From contig JAJONO010000021.1 in NCBI GenBank assembly GCA_021323535.1, positions 1 through 61,925 of the forward strand: DNA of 61,925 nt, in the 5' to 3' direction. This document shows positions 886-6,956 of this stretch, in pieces (position 1 is the stretch's first letter; each line of letters opens with the position of its first letter). The position numbers and the translations under genes were made by a program. This stretch comes from Bacteroidota bacterium. GTDB taxonomy: Bacteria; Bacteroidota; Bacteroidia; B-17B0; Aurantibacillaceae. The notes beneath the pieces were generated by a model. It was given only the letters and a program-made list of their open reading frames with translations. It was not told where the DNA came from and made no database searches.

Positions 886-951
886 CAATGTATTTATTGA
901 GGAATTTACTTTGCAATGCAGATTCTGTTTGCTACATTGTATATATTTCTC

Positions 952-1359
952 ATGAAGCGCGTCGAATTTTCCCATGCGATCGTTACTTATGAGCCTCCTT
1001 TCGTTGTGCTTACAATTAAAGAAGGCGCTCAGCTCGACATTGCCGAAATGAGAGAAGCCATGAAGGCCTGTGAAGCGGTGGCGGGGAATAGGCCCTATTT
1101 ATTGATATCCGATGCCAGGGTTCACCTCAGTATTACTCCGGAAGCGCGCAAACTTGCGGCAGATATAAAAGAATCTCCTAACTTAAGAGCAAACGCGGTC
1201 CTTGTCAATAATCTGGCAGTAAGGATCACCGCTAATTTTTTTGTGAAATTTAACCAGCCTCATTTTAAATACAGGGTGTTTAATGATAAAAGAAAAGCTG
1301 AGGAATGGCTCCTTAAATTTGACCCGGCAAAAACACCTGTTCAGCATTTAAGGCAATAA
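952..1359 (+). CDS. STAS/SpoIIAA-like domain protein (DUF7793-like)
   Basis: A small soluble protein of about 135 residues. It resembles a Bacteroidota STAS-like family with a beta strand (VVLTIKEG), an amphipathic helix (AEMREAMKACEAV), a YLLISDAR strand and a C-terminal RVFNDKRKAEEWL helix. I chose ATG 952 because family similarity begins at KRVEF. The upstream in-frame ATG at 916 would add 12 hydrophobic residues. The family has no assigned biochemical role; related folds act as anti-anti-sigma proteins. Its 3' end overlaps the convergent response-regulator gene by 19 bp. Three SpoIIE-type phosphatases lie elsewhere in the window, so a partner-switching role is possible but unproven. Confidence 0.75.
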   Translation: MKRVEFSHAIVTYEPPFVVLTIKEGAQLDIAEMREAMKACEAVAGNRPYLLISDARVHLSITPEARKLAADIKESPNLRANAVLVNNLAVRITANFFVKFNQPHFKYRVFNDKRKAEEWLLKFDPAKTPVQHLRQ

Positions 1360-2027: not shown

Positions 2028-3564
2028 ATGGTAATGTTATAATAAATTCAGATCCTTTGTGTAATTCGCTGGTAACTGAAATGTTTCCACCAAACAGCTC
2101 TACAGTTTGTTTTACATAACTTAAACCAATTCCAAAGCCTTTTGTTGTATGAAGATCCTTTTCGGTGACCCTGAAAAACTTATCAAAGATAAAACGCTGG
2201 TGTTCTTTGCTTATACCTATGCCGTTATCTTTTACAGAAAGAATAATTTTATCGCCGGAGTTCCTTGTTGAAATGTCAATTTTAATTTCGTGCTCGTTGT
2301 ATTTGATGGCATTATCAATAAGATTTGATAACACATTCATAAAATGAAACCTGTCTACTTTCGCGAACATATTTTTCGCTTCGGGTGATTGATTTAATTT
2401 TACGTGTTTCGAATTCAGAAGCGACGCGTTCTGCATAATACTTTCTGAAATAATATCGTGGATATTATAAACCTGTGGAGTAAAGATCTGTTGTTCTTTT
2501 TCGAGAAGAGATAATTCAAATACTTTTTCAATATGATTATTCAGCTTCTTATTTTCTTCTTCAATAATACCTGTGTATTGCTTAATGTTTTGCTGGTTAC
2601 TGTAATCAGCCGCCGAACTTATGTTTGAATTTGCCAGCGAAATGGTTGCCAGTGGCGTTTTTAGTTCATGGGTAAGATTATTAATAAAATCATTTTTGTA
2701 CTGGTTCAGTTTTTGTTCCGTCAGCATTTTCCGATAGAGTAATAAAATAACAGTTATGAGGAGAAGTGTTACAAATAAACTAAGAACGATAACACCAATG
2801 GCTTTTGTGAAAATGTAGTTGATGGTGGAAGGGTAAAATACATTTAGTTTATATCCCTGCGCTACGATATCTTTTGTAAACATGGGAACAATAATGGCAG
2901 CTGAAGGAACATACCCAGGAGTTTTAAAAATGATCTTCCCCTCTCTATCTGTAATGGCTGCTTCGGGAGCAAGATCAATTCCTCTTGTATTTAGATTATT
3001 ACCGAGACTTTGTGTCAATTCATTGAAATTAACGCGCTCTTCTATTTTCAGATTTTTTGGTTGCGACTGATAAACTATTTTTTTAAGCAACTGCTCATAG
3101 TTTTTCATCTTTGTTTTAATTTTTTTAATCTGCGGTTTGGGATTCACTTCCGTTACAGATTTAATCACACTTACCTGTTGATTGTTGTTTTCATCTGAAG
3201 AAATGGCGTAAGCAGTCGTTGTCACTTCGTTATTATCTGAACTGTGAACGAATACATTTTTGTCGCCATTATTAACGATCACTTTAACTTGTGATTTATG
3301 AATTTTATTATTCTGTTTTTTATTGAAATTAGGTTTCCTCATTGGCAATTCAGACTCGATCAATGTATCCAGGCTGGTTATAAGTAATTTCGAATCTTCT
3401 TTTTGCTCGATGCTTGCAAGACTTTCCAATGCAGCTTGCCGTGTGTTCGCGTCAAGAAAACGTTTTTCCTGCTTAATGGCATAAAACAGCCACATGCCCT
3501 GCATGCTTAATAAGCCCAATAGAGAAAATGCAATAATATATACGCTGCGTTTGTCCTTAAACAC
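2014..3564 (-). CDS. Membrane sensor histidine kinase
   Basis: A 516-residue kinase. It has a transmembrane helix at about 9-29, a ~220-residue periplasmic sensor rich in Lys and Asn, a second helix at about 252-277, a dimerisation/phosphoacceptor domain with H299 in THELKTPLA, and an HATPase domain with the N box (NLIDNAIKYN), G1 (DNGIGI) and G2 (GFGIGL) motifs. The sensor part contains an EAAITDREGKIIFKTPGY segment but no recognised ligand domain. The start codon is GTG (complement of 3562-3564). A TAAATTTG -7 box on the minus strand at 3569-3576 ends only 5 nt from it, implying a leaderless message. It forms an operon with the overlapping response regulator. Confidence 0.93.
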   Translation of the reverse strand: MFKDKRSVYIIAFSLLGLLSMQGMWLFYAIKQEKRFLDANTRQAALESLASIEQKEDSKLLITSLDTLIESELPMRKPNFNKKQNNKIHKSQVKVIVNNGDKNVFVHSSDNNEVTTTAYAISSDENNNQQVSVIKSVTEVNPKPQIKKIKTKMKNYEQLLKKIVYQSQPKNLKIEERVNFNELTQSLGNNLNTRGIDLAPEAAITDREGKIIFKTPGYVPSAAIIVPMFTKDIVAQGYKLNVFYPSTINYIFTKAIGVIVLSLFVTLLLITVILLLYRKMLTEQKLNQYKNDFINNLTHELKTPLATISLANSNISSAADYSNQQNIKQYTGIIEEENKKLNNHIEKVFELSLLEKEQQIFTPQVYNIHDIISESIMQNASLLNSKHVKLNQSPEAKNMFAKVDRFHFMNVLSNLIDNAIKYNEHEIKIDISTRNSGDKIILSVKDNGIGISKEHQRFIFDKFFRVTEKDLHTTKGFGIGLSYVKQTVELFGGNISVTSELHKGSEFIITLPYAKG

Positions 3565-3571
3565 AGTTCAA

Positions 3572-3640
3572 ATTTAACAAAGCCTTAACTACCAAAACCA
3601 ACTTTAACTTTTCTTTAACAGGCTTTAACCAGGCTTTAAC
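3572..3640. promoter_or_regulatory. Helically phased TTTAAC direct-repeat array
   Basis: CTTTAAC occurs four times, starting at 3602, 3613, 3623 and 3634 (steps of 11, 10 and 11 bp). Two weaker copies start at 3572 (aTTTAAC) and 3583 (cCTTAAC). About one copy per DNA turn on the same face is the layout of OmpR/PhoB-family binding sites. The array fills the space between the kinase/regulator operon, whose -7 box lies at 3569-3576 on the minus strand, and the divergent T9SS gene. Binding by the adjacent response regulator is inferred. Confidence 0.7.
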
Positions 3641-3662
3641 CAAAGGTCGTTGGTAGTCAAAG

Positions 3663-3670
3663 TAATTTTG
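3663..3670 (+). promoter_or_regulatory. -7 box TAATTTTG
   Basis: This is a perfect match to the Bacteroidota housekeeping TAnnTTTG element, 31 nt upstream of ATG 3702 and directly after the phased repeat array. No good -33 TTG is visible at the usual distance, which fits a promoter needing an activator bound in the array. Confidence 0.6.
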
Positions 3671-3701
3671 TGTGATAAACCAACAATTAAAAATAAGAAT
3701 T

Positions 3702-4492: not shown

Positions 4493-4537
4493 ACTTCGTC
4501 AAAGTACAAGCCAACTACTTAAGAACTTTGACGAAGT
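4493..4537. repeat. 45-bp hairpin element, copy 1
   Basis: Perfect 13-bp inverted arms ACTTCGTCAAAGT (4493-4505) and ACTTTGACGAAGT (4525-4537) flank a 19-nt loop, just after the stop codon at 4472. A second copy lies in opposite orientation at 28665-28709. The reverse complement of this copy matches it at 36 of 45 positions, loop included, so this is a dispersed element rather than a chance terminator. Confidence 0.75.
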
Positions 4538-4565: not shown

Positions 4566-4604
4566 AAAAAAAGACCGGCTGCTGCAATGGCCGGCCTTTT
4601 TTTA
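4566..4604. terminator. Bidirectional rho-independent terminator
   Basis: A CCGGC/GCCGG stem extended by G-C and A-T pairs (one A-C mismatch) has A-runs before it and T-runs after it. It sits between the convergent T9SS gene (ends 4472) and the SpoIIE phosphatase gene (stop at 4614, minus strand) and can serve both. Confidence 0.8.
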
Positions 4605-4613
4605 TTAGAAAAA

Positions 4614-6956
4614 TCAAATTCTTATTCCTATCACAAGAATATCATCTACCTGGTCGTTGTTTCCTTTCCAGGTATTAAAGGCAGAGAAGAGTTGCGGTTC
4701 TATATCCTTCATTGGAAGATCGGAAACTTCAATCAATTTTTTGGAAAAATTCTTAAGCATAAATTTTTTCCCATTAGCGCCGCCAAACTGATCGGCATAA
4801 CCATCGGTGAACATAAACAAGCAATCGTTTTTCTGAAGTTGAATGCTGTTATTGGTAAACAATTTTTTATCGGCCGTATCAATTCCACCAATGGCAAATT
4901 TATTGGCCTTAATCTCAATGAGCTCTTTGTTTCTAACGATCCATAATGGTCTCATTGCTCCCGAATACTGCAGAGAATTTTTATGCAGGTCAAATGTACA
5001 AAGGGCAATATCCATTCCGTCGCGTGTTTCAGAATTATCCTGATCCTGTTTCAAGGCATAACGAACACCCTTATTTAATTCGTTCAGCACAATATCGGGT
5101 TGTGAAATACCTCTTTCAGTAATGATCCTGGTAAGTTGTTCCATGCCAATCATGCTCATGAAAGCTCCTGGAACACCGTGGCCAGTACAATCTGCTACAG
5201 CAATTGTTACAAGATTATCTTTTTGAAAGAACGCGTAAAAATCTCCGCTCACTACATCTTTTGGATTGTATAACACAAATGAGTCGTTAAACACAGTATA
5301 AATGTTTTGTTTCGGTGGAAGAATAGCCTGTTGAATACGTTTAGCGTATTGAATACTATCTACAATTTCCTTTTTCTGACTGGCGATTTCGTCGCGGTTG
5401 GCTTCAATTTCATTAAAGGCGGATTGTAACTTAATATTGCTTTGTTGTTTGATACGGTAACGGTTGTAAATCAGAAAAGCCACAACAAGTAACAAGCCTA
5501 AACCAATAAGGAGCATGTTTTGCTGAAGCGATTTTACTTTCAGTTGTTTCTCATTTACTTCTTTATCCTTGTTGAGTATCGCGATTTGATTCTCTTTCTT
5601 TTCTGTATTGTAGCGTGTTTCCAGTTCGGCAACTTTATCGGCGCTTTCTTTCTGGAAAACTGAATCTTTAGCGGAGATATATTTCTGATAAAATTCCACC
5701 GATTGCTTGTAATTGCCCGCATCATTAAATACATCGGCAAGGTTCTTAAAAGTATTTATTACAGCACCTCTGTCTTCAACTGTTTTGGCCAGCGCTAAAG
5801 CTTTTTCGTAAAAGGCAATTGACTTTGAAAAGTTTTTCATTTTAAGATATAGCGAACCTGCATGCTGGTAGCACATAATAAGTCCGTTCTGGTCCTCCAT
5901 CCGTTCTTTGATTTCTAAGGCTTCGATAAGGCTCTTTTCCGCTAAAGGATATTCATTTCTTTGGGCGTGAACGTAAACGAGATTAGCGAGCACATCACTG
6001 TAGAAGCGCAAGTCCTTCAACTCTAAAAAAGTTTGCTTGGCGCCTAACAGCTTTGGAAGAGCCTTTTCAAAATTATCTCTTTCAAGATAGATCGAAGCAA
6101 TGTTGAATCTAACATTTCCGAGATATAATTTATAATCAATTTCTTCCAGGAGTTTTTCAGCGCTCAGGAAATAGTTAAGGGCCTTATCTTTATTTCCCAT
6201 TTCGTAATATACTGTTCCGGTATTTACTTCGCAGCCGGCGTATTCTTTTTTATTCTTTAATTTCTCGTATATTTTTTGCGCGTGCTGGTAAGATGTAAGC
6301 GCACTGGCAAAGTCGGTACTGGTTCGGTAACAAGAGCCTATCTGATTATAAATGCTCGCCATCTTGTCTGAATCATTCAATGATCTATAACATTCGAAGG
6401 ATTCATTAAAAGGGTCCATGGCTTTTTTATGTTCACCCATGAAATAAAAAGTTCTGGCGGTCATATACTGATTAAGGGCATGATCTCTTGTGAGTTTTTG
6501 CGATTTTGAAATTGCCGAGGCCTGCTTAAAATAGCTTAAGGCTTCCGTCATTTTGTTCTGCATGCCAAACACCTGGCCCATTGCTCTGAAAGCTTTACAC
6601 TGATCACTGTAGGATTCTGCCAGCTTGTATTTTGAGAGTGAAAGTTTGTATTCGGCAAGGGCTTTATCAAAATTTCTGTTACTTAACCAATGCTGTCCTA
6701 CTAAATAATGATAATCGCCCTCGTACTTTTTATTGGGGGAAGAATAAGCTATTTTTTCAATTTCCCCCAGATAAGGATTAGATAAAAATGTACTGTCTTT
6801 TGTGGACAGATCACAGATTTTAATGAGGACAGAAATTCTTGCTGTATCTTTTTTTGATTTTAAAACCTGTACAAGACTGTCTTTTGTATCCGCAAAAAAA
6901 TGCAACGATGCAATTAAAAGTAGACAGGTGAATACTTTACGGAAATTTAAATTCAT
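4614..6956 (-). CDS. TPR-repeat membrane protein with SpoIIE-type PP2C phosphatase domain
   Basis: A 780-residue protein. It has a signal peptide (1-22), an array of tetratricopeptide repeats (about 80-430), a coiled coil (about 435-478), one transmembrane helix (about 480-498), a second short coiled coil, and a cytoplasmic PP2C/SpoIIE Ser/Thr phosphatase domain (about 545-780). The metal-binding signature is intact: SGDF (570-573), ADCTGHG (588-594), RDGMDIAL, TDGYADQFGG and a final QVDDI. The topology is sensor TPRs outside, phosphatase inside. This architecture is common in Bacteroidota, but its phosphoprotein substrates are mostly unknown; STAS-type proteins are the classical ones. The start gives a clean signal peptide, and the gene ends at a shared terminator. 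Confidence 0.93.
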   Translation of the reverse strand: MNLNFRKVFTCLLLIASLHFFADTKDSLVQVLKSKKDTARISVLIKICDLSTKDSTFLSNPYLGEIEKIAYSSPNKKYEGDYHYLVGQHWLSNRNFDKALAEYKLSLSKYKLAESYSDQCKAFRAMGQVFGMQNKMTEALSYFKQASAISKSQKLTRDHALNQYMTARTFYFMGEHKKAMDPFNESFECYRSLNDSDKMASIYNQIGSCYRTSTDFASALTSYQHAQKIYEKLKNKKEYAGCEVNTGTVYYEMGNKDKALNYFLSAEKLLEEIDYKLYLGNVRFNIASIYLERDNFEKALPKLLGAKQTFLELKDLRFYSDVLANLVYVHAQRNEYPLAEKSLIEALEIKERMEDQNGLIMCYQHAGSLYLKMKNFSKSIAFYEKALALAKTVEDRGAVINTFKNLADVFNDAGNYKQSVEFYQKYISAKDSVFQKESADKVAELETRYNTEKKENQIAILNKDKEVNEKQLKVKSLQQNMLLIGLGLLLVVAFLIYNRYRIKQQSNIKLQSAFNEIEANRDEIASQKKEIVDSIQYAKRIQQAILPPKQNIYTVFNDSFVLYNPKDVVSGDFYAFFQKDNLVTIAVADCTGHGVPGAFMSMIGMEQLTRIITERGISQPDIVLNELNKGVRYALKQDQDNSETRDGMDIALCTFDLHKNSLQYSGAMRPLWIVRNKELIEIKANKFAIGGIDTADKKLFTNNSIQLQKNDCLFMFTDGYADQFGGANGKKFMLKNFSKKLIEVSDLPMKDIEPQLFSAFNTWKGNNDQVDDILVIGIRI

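Follow-up and report, generated by a model that had tools for sequence, protein, structure and literature searches.

A phased TTTAAC array between a two-component operon and the divergently read gene of a secreted protein in a member of the Bacteroidota

The array and its neighbours in the window

The window, that is, the whole stretch of 61,925 nucleotides that was analysed, contains a sensor histidine kinase gene and a response regulator gene that are read divergently from the gene of a secreted protein, here called the partner. A series of TTTAAC hexamers lies between them, together with a -7 box for each direction (Table 1). The membrane helices of the kinase were placed by eye and from a structure model, in which residues 64-148 are of low confidence, and no named domain was found between the helices. 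The regulator consists of a receiver and a winged-helix Trans_reg_C domain, with PF00072 and PF00486 both above the cut-off. Its nearest curated family is RprY, at 251.6 bits against a cut-off of 370, and a different regulator of the same genome, with 339.2 bits, is the nearer RprY candidate; the score with the Bacteroidota PhoB family (NF053854), 168.2 bits, also lies below its cut-off of 270.

The C terminus of the partner scored well above the cut-offs of both sorting-domain models of the type IX secretion system (T9SS), with 58.1 bits against 27 for PF18962 and 49.6 bits against 23 for TIGR04183, as expected of T9SS cargo. The protein begins with a signal peptide (assigned by eye) and has an N-terminal VRIKKIENINGVEKVTDTTY segment; a match to DUF5956 is marginal (24.9 bits, cut-off 24). 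In the structure model the sorting domain alone is confident and the N-domain is poorly modelled. The locus thus has the plan of an exported accessory protein encoded divergently from a kinase-regulator pair, export being read from the sorting domain together with the signal peptide that was assigned by eye. Further genes and repeats next to the module are included in Table 1.

Table 1. Position of the array, the promoter elements and the surrounding genes in the window
Feature	Position	Strand	Remark
DUF7793/SpoIIAA-like gene	916-1359		convergent with regulator gene, ends overlap by 19 bp
OmpR/PhoB-family response regulator, 228 aa	1341-2027	-	Response_reg, Trans_reg_C; overlaps kinase gene
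Sensor histidine kinase, 516 aa	2014-3564	-	HisKA, HATPase_c
-7 box TAAATTTG of kinase promoter	3569-3576	-	4 nt before GTG start
Weak boxes TTTAAC and CTTAAC	3573-3578 and 3584-3589	+	overlap kinase -7 box
Box 1 TTTAAC	3603-3608	+	nTTAAC in 14/14 aligned promoters
Box 2 TTTAAC	3614-3619	+	11 bp from box 1; nTTAAC 14/14
Box 3 TTTAAC	3624-3629	+	10 bp from box 2; TTTAAC 11/14
Box 4 TTTAAC	3635-3640	+	11 bp from box 3; nTTAAC 14/14
-7 box TAATTTTG of partner promoter	3663-3670	+	TAnnTTTG in 13/14 aligned promoters
Secreted partner, 256 aa	3702-4472	+	T9SS type A sorting domain, C terminus
Perfect 13-bp inverted repeat ACTTCGTCAAAGT / ACTTTGACGAAGT	4493-4537		after partner gene; by eye
Terminator-like hairpin	~4566-4602		past inverted repeat; by eye
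TPR-repeat protein with SpoIIE-type phosphatase domain	4614-6956		convergent with partner gene

The original prediction described four boxes at steps of 11, 10 and 11 bp, which agrees exactly with their starts; in total, positions 3573-3640 hold five TTTAAC and one CTTAAC. The two weaker copies were said to lie on the same DNA face as the others. They are in phase with each other, being 11 bp apart, and not strictly on the face of the array, since the second of them starts 19 bp (about 1.8 turns) before box 1. CTTTAAC occurs 14 times in the window against a shuffle mean of 13.8, so that the total is at chance level and the unusual part is the clustering and the phase only. An 11/10/11 run was absent from all 20,000 dinucleotide shuffles of positions 3541-3701, and the longest run with 10/11 spacing was three boxes, reached in 3 shuffles.

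Within the 5.3-Mb genome, CTTTAACN4CTTTAAC and the three-box pattern were unique to the array site, which a model of the boxes alone found at E 7e-13. No further strong array site was found in this genome, the remaining matches being partial and weak and the best of them having an E value of 0.010. The array is therefore confirmed as a genuine feature that has no equal in its genome, and the genome search for a wider CTTTAAC regulon, as had been suggested, yielded this single strong site.

Conservation of the array and of the promoter geometry

Twenty stretches around relatives of the regulator were collected, and in 13 of them kinase, regulator and tailed protein stand in the same divergent arrangement. 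These 13 were aligned with the window to give 14 promoters, the 7 stretches without a partner being left out. Boxes 1 and 2 served as the anchor of the alignment, and every locus could be placed by them. The frame nTTAAC-N5-nTTAAC-N4-box3-N5-nTTAAC was present in all 14 promoters, with box 3 deviating in three (TTTAAG, ATTAAG and TTTAGG). Loss of phasing in orthologous promoters, which would have spoken against the original prediction, was thus not observed in any of the 14, and the array behaves as a tandem repeat with a period of about 10-11 bp in which spacings other than 11/10/11 are rare. A three-box pattern with N5 in both gaps was also tried; it returned nothing in 60 relatives, the middle gap being N4, and was dropped.

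Among the 37 genomes of the genus, 13 have a strong orthologue of the regulator (E < 1e-70) and the array is found in 13 of 13, although these genomes are the model's own rows, were found via the regulator and match by construction. Since the array genomes are training rows, only the other side of the comparison is informative: none of the 24 genomes without a regulator orthologue has a strong array, and seven of these 24 show weak partial matches (E 0.001-0.01). The cut-off of 1e-70 was set after a gap in the values had been seen, the nearest array-less genome of the genus (G028) having a match of E 4.6e-67 and 46% identity. Matches in the genus near E 0.002 (L246-L248, L253 and L254) proved to be one common sequence, by eye the end of a cold-shock-like gene, and were discarded.

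For the search of the class a model, R1, was made from the 42 box columns of the 14 aligned rows; R1 and the kinase, regulator and partner profiles were all built from the 14 aligned loci, which match by construction. R1 gave a match at E <= 1e-3 in 36 of 395 genomes. All 18 of its strongest matches (E <= 4.8e-6), of which 7 are training rows and 11 are independent, lie between a gene for a T9SS-tailed protein and a divergent kinase gene. Thirty of the 37 rows at E <= 1e-3 were examined; 23 lie between both genes, one adjoins the partner only, one the kinase only and five neither. Four TTAAC at 11/10/11 occur in 25 of the 395 genomes as compared with one for the reversed control, and four alternative spacings combined occur in 5, their own control giving 3. 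The 25 exact matches adjoin both genes in 15 genomes, the kinase gene in 4, the partner gene in 2 and neither in 4; two of the last group lie between htrA-like and dapF genes and one is near a contig end.

A pattern scan of named genomes gave at least 118 stretches; most of the 80 titled ones belong to the Bacteroidota, and some are archaeal or from other bacteria. The 118 stretches listed are a non-random sample, and the matching was exact, so that the boxes themselves are uninformative here and the -7 boxes and the genes carry the information. Among the matches listed, 54 adjoin a divergent kinase gene, 17 a kinase gene and a partner gene, and 3 a partner gene only, so that 74 of 118 are linked to one or both genes. 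Kinase-linked arrays occur, for example, in Maribellus luteus (L152), Pontibacter (L125 and L158) and Rufibacter (L168). The 44 unlinked ones are 16 members of an htrA-like group and 28 that are chance occurrences, contig ends or missed calls. One Bacteroidetes bacterium (4572_114) carries two four-box arrays upstream of a single kinase operon (L156:426-462 and 484-520).

The -7 position of the partner promoter follows box 4 by exactly 22 nt in 14 of 14 aligned promoters, across a spacer of poorly conserved sequence, and the boxes therefore replace or abut the upstream promoter element at a fixed distance from the core. In the named matches listed, TAnnTTTG was found 21-23 nt past the array in 63 of the 72 linked loci with room for it and in 5 of 43 unlinked loci, the rate in shuffles being 0.17%. 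A TTG that could serve as a -33 element at a spacer of 17-22 occurred in 5 of 64 promoters of relatives, always at spacer 17. The lack of a good -33 element, which had been noted for the window and taken as a mark of an activated promoter, accordingly extends to the relatives, and its value as an argument has to be lowered: in Flavobacterium johnsoniae no -33 motif was found generally, as far as the available text of PMC7366714 goes, and where this element is hard to find in part of the phylum its absence is weak evidence of activation.

The kinase -7 box of the window is opposed to that of the partner and stands 26 nt before box 1. Among the named matches listed, 61 of 72 loci had an opposed -7 box no more than 80 nt from the array, and 58 of the opposed boxes in the 72 loci were 26-29 nt before the first TTAAC. 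An ATG stood exactly 4 nt beyond the box in 28 of the 63 opposed boxes found within 110 nt in the same matches; in the window a GTG takes this place. TAnnTTTG covers positions -12 to -5 in Flavobacterium psychrophilum as described in PMC9723704, and a start codon 4 nt beyond it would place the beginning of the kinase mRNA at the start codon itself. The kinase gene is thus probably transcribed without a leader. This predicted arrangement (positions 3562-3576 in the window) recurs in many relatives. Leaders shorter than 10 nt in Bacteroides thetaiotaomicron include those of two sensor kinases according to PMC7366714. The weak boxes over the kinase -7 box are partly kept within the genus, as read by eye, and elsewhere, among the matches listed, TTAAC stood at the corresponding two positions in 3 and in 2 of the 58 named loci; judged from these sequences, they are lineage-specific and not generally conserved outside the genus. 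The array, its phasing, the promoter geometry, the gene arrangement and the co-occurrence of array and genes are all seen by sequence comparison.

Regulators, partners and htrA-like genes beside the arrays

Among the 60 relatives searched, four strong regulator orthologues (E < 1e-70) lie outside the genus, and one of these has a four-box array. No tailed protein was matched beside the regulator in the other three, of which G037 and G058 keep two boxes and G057 keeps one. Six further genomes (G167, G302, G343, G364, G383 and G417) are called flavobacterium-like on account of a shared family, f54, and because two of them resemble Tenacibaculum/Polaribacter loci. All six have an orthologue of the regulator, and the five kinase promoters that could be read contain at least two TTAAC, of which two are spaced by 10 or 11 bp, and have no partner match. 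Since boxes persist at kinase-regulator operons without a partner, and none of the 24 genus genomes without an orthologue has an array, the boxes follow the regulator and not the partner. The original reading of an OmpR/PhoB-type tandem site for the neighbouring regulator draws support from these partner-less operons, from the 0 of 24 in the genus and from the phasing in 14 of 14 promoters, and binding by this regulator would be in keeping with all three.

A tree of 86 regulators split the array-linked ones between two clades, in which they make up 51 of 54 and 19 of 19 rows; paralogues without an array lie between these clades and at the base, and the tree has four label changes. The two clades and the RprY-like paralogues have similar recognition helices, so that a paralogue might bind the array as well. 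Clade B loci (L098, L110, L119, L183, L138 and others) have a shorter kinase of about 430 aa, and the gene read divergently from it encodes a Lys/Cys-rich protein of about 95 aa; the array and promoter geometry are the same.

A partner was assigned by a heuristic choice of open reading frame, which gave none in 15 of the 74 linked named loci listed. The resulting 59 partners comprise 16 with a T9SS tail, 24 with the N-terminal motif and no tail, 12 small Lys/Cys-rich proteins and 7 others. The N-terminal motif, a regular expression composed after inspection of the proteins, was found, among the matches listed, at 43 of the 59 linked loci and at 1 of the 30 without a link. A profile of the partner N-terminus picks up mainly near relatives. 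When nine further partners were run against Pfam, two gave a sorting tail, one a sub-threshold AMIN match and six nothing. Neither the window partner nor these nine showed a CpxP- or Spy-like Pfam match, and the model of the N-domain is too poor for comparison.

A common variant of the four-box array was seen at 16 unlinked loci, hand-picked among the named matches listed (L097, L105, L113, L114, L134, L146, L149, L163, L170, L176, L194, L197, L198, L199, L203 and L209). All nine of the titled ones are Tenacibaculum or Polaribacter. The -7 box is at 25-26 nt in 15 of 16, and a dapF-like open reading frame follows in 14, L097 ending too early and L149 having another frame. On the other side there is in all 16 a divergent open reading frame with the N-terminus of an htrA-like protease. 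Pfam scans of two members outside the named set gave a Trypsin_2 and PDZ protease in both, and diaminopimelate epimerase for the one dapF frame scanned. L228 and L229 also carry the variant array beside an htrA-like gene. The main text of PMC9723704 contains no TTAAC, dapF or degP. HtrA/DegP is described as a known Cpx target in PMC6737893, and the arrays beside htrA-like genes are for this reason the main support for a role in the cell envelope.

Proposed mechanism and related systems

We consider it likely that the array serves the adjacent two-component system as its operator and that the regulator binds it and activates the partner gene, with a confidence slightly lowered by the small weight of the missing -33 element. 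The phosphorylated regulator would bind the four tandem nTTAAC half-sites, which two head-to-tail dimers could fill on one face of the DNA. Box 4, at about -40 to -35, would stand where a -33 element would begin, and the bound regulator may bring sigma-A polymerase to the partner -7 box. The opposed -7 box would drive the kinase-regulator operon and so provide autoregulation, which the genus-specific weak pair over this box may limit. On weaker grounds, the exported partner may report on or damp the kinase in a loop for envelope quality similar to that of CpxRA/CpxP. We infer that this regulator is the binder and that activation prevails over repression, and likewise the number of dimers, the feedback and the signal.

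A different OmpR-family paralogue, for example the widespread RprY-like one, might bind the array, and the neighbouring regulator would then have its targets at other sites. Three observations would fit: among curated families the neighbouring regulator comes closest to RprY, its recognition-helix motif is common to clade B and to the RprY-like regulators in the genus, and arrays occur away from kinase genes, beside htrA-like genes. However, regulator matches of about 40-50% identity are present in all 36 other genomes of the genus with or without an array, whereas strong arrays are missing from the 24 genomes without the neighbouring regulator's own orthologue and two-box sites are kept upstream of its operon in five flavobacterium-like genomes. 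We regard binding by a paralogue as quite improbable. Marginally better placed, and in our opinion still unlikely, is an array that serves mainly as a repressor site and shuts both divergent promoters, with another factor activating the partner. The weak boxes do overlap the kinase -7 box, some relatives without a partner have boxes near the kinase start, and a missing -33 element is by itself no sign of activation, in view of what PMC7366714 describes. Boxes 1-4, however, cover neither of the -7 boxes, which stand at a fixed 22 nt on the partner side and at 26-29 nt on the kinase side, a spacing to be expected of an activator next to polymerase.

A clustering of this AT-rich hexamer by chance or base composition would account for the CTTTAAC total of the window; it has practically no standing beside the empty result of 20,000 shuffles, and it is refuted by the conservation of phase and place across genera and families. 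The feedback part of the preferred reading can also be given a narrower form, compatible with the wider one, that of a dedicated T9SS sentinel: on failure of secretion the tailed partner would accumulate in the periplasm and thereby switch the kinase. The T9SS sorting domain of the window partner and of relatives suggests it, as does the precedent of PorA/PorXY, in which a tailed protein lies upstream of a kinase (PMC7712824). However, 24 of the 59 partners among the matches listed have the motif without a tail and 12 are small Lys/Cys-rich proteins, so that the tail is not essential, and we find this form rather doubtful.

To our knowledge, few response-regulator binding motifs have been worked out in Bacteroidota, and a search of titles and abstracts yielded no report of this motif or module. 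The box of Bacillus PhoP is TTAACA. As an operator, the four-box site is close to the Pho boxes known for PhoB in E. coli and SphR in cyanobacteria, which are also tandem direct repeats for an OmpR-family regulator, and the SphR box CTTAACCT is almost identical to the array box (PMC1906773). Two repeats are the minimum for PhoB and three for SphR, and in E. coli the Pho boxes are placed directly ahead of the -10 element (PMC1906773); the promoters at the array resemble the PhoB type in geometry. Their period is 11 bp, made up of 8 bp and a 3-bp linker (PMC1906773), whereas the middle step of the array is 10 bp; moreover, the array belongs to another phylum, its neighbours are not phosphate genes and the PhoB cut-offs are not reached.

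In gene plan the module resembles CpxRA/cpxP of gamma-proteobacteria, in which an exported protein is likewise encoded divergently from a kinase-regulator operon (PMC6737893). The likeness here comes from this plan and from the related arrays beside htrA-like genes, and the partner, unlike CpxP, is often T9SS-tailed. RprX/RprY of Bacteroides and Porphyromonas (PMC3646045) represents the nearest regulator family, and RprY-like paralogues have the recognition-helix motif of the array-linked regulators. PorA-PorXY-SigP of Porphyromonas gingivalis also combines a T9SS-tailed exported protein with a two-component system (PMC7712824), but the available text of that source describes no divergent porA-porXY arrangement for P. 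gingivalis, and it records that direct contact of PorA and PorY was not detected.

The titles and abstracts searched also contained no Cpx-like envelope-stress two-component system in Bacteroidota. We tentatively raise the possibility, at less than even chances, that the module is a Bacteroidota-wide Cpx counterpart, in which a partner family that is often T9SS-tailed would feed back on the kinase, the four-box array would be the operator and the flavobacterial promoter pair of htrA-like and dapF genes would be a target. The comparison gives a likely operator of defined form, a promoter geometry that is fixed, a candidate regulator and a family of exported partners whose N-terminal domain has no name. 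It adds a putative stress-type target, the htrA-like gene, in flavobacteria, and the conservation is wide enough for tests in harmless species that can be cultured. Should the partner serve as a reporter of type IX secretion, the sensing of secretion status could be tested directly.
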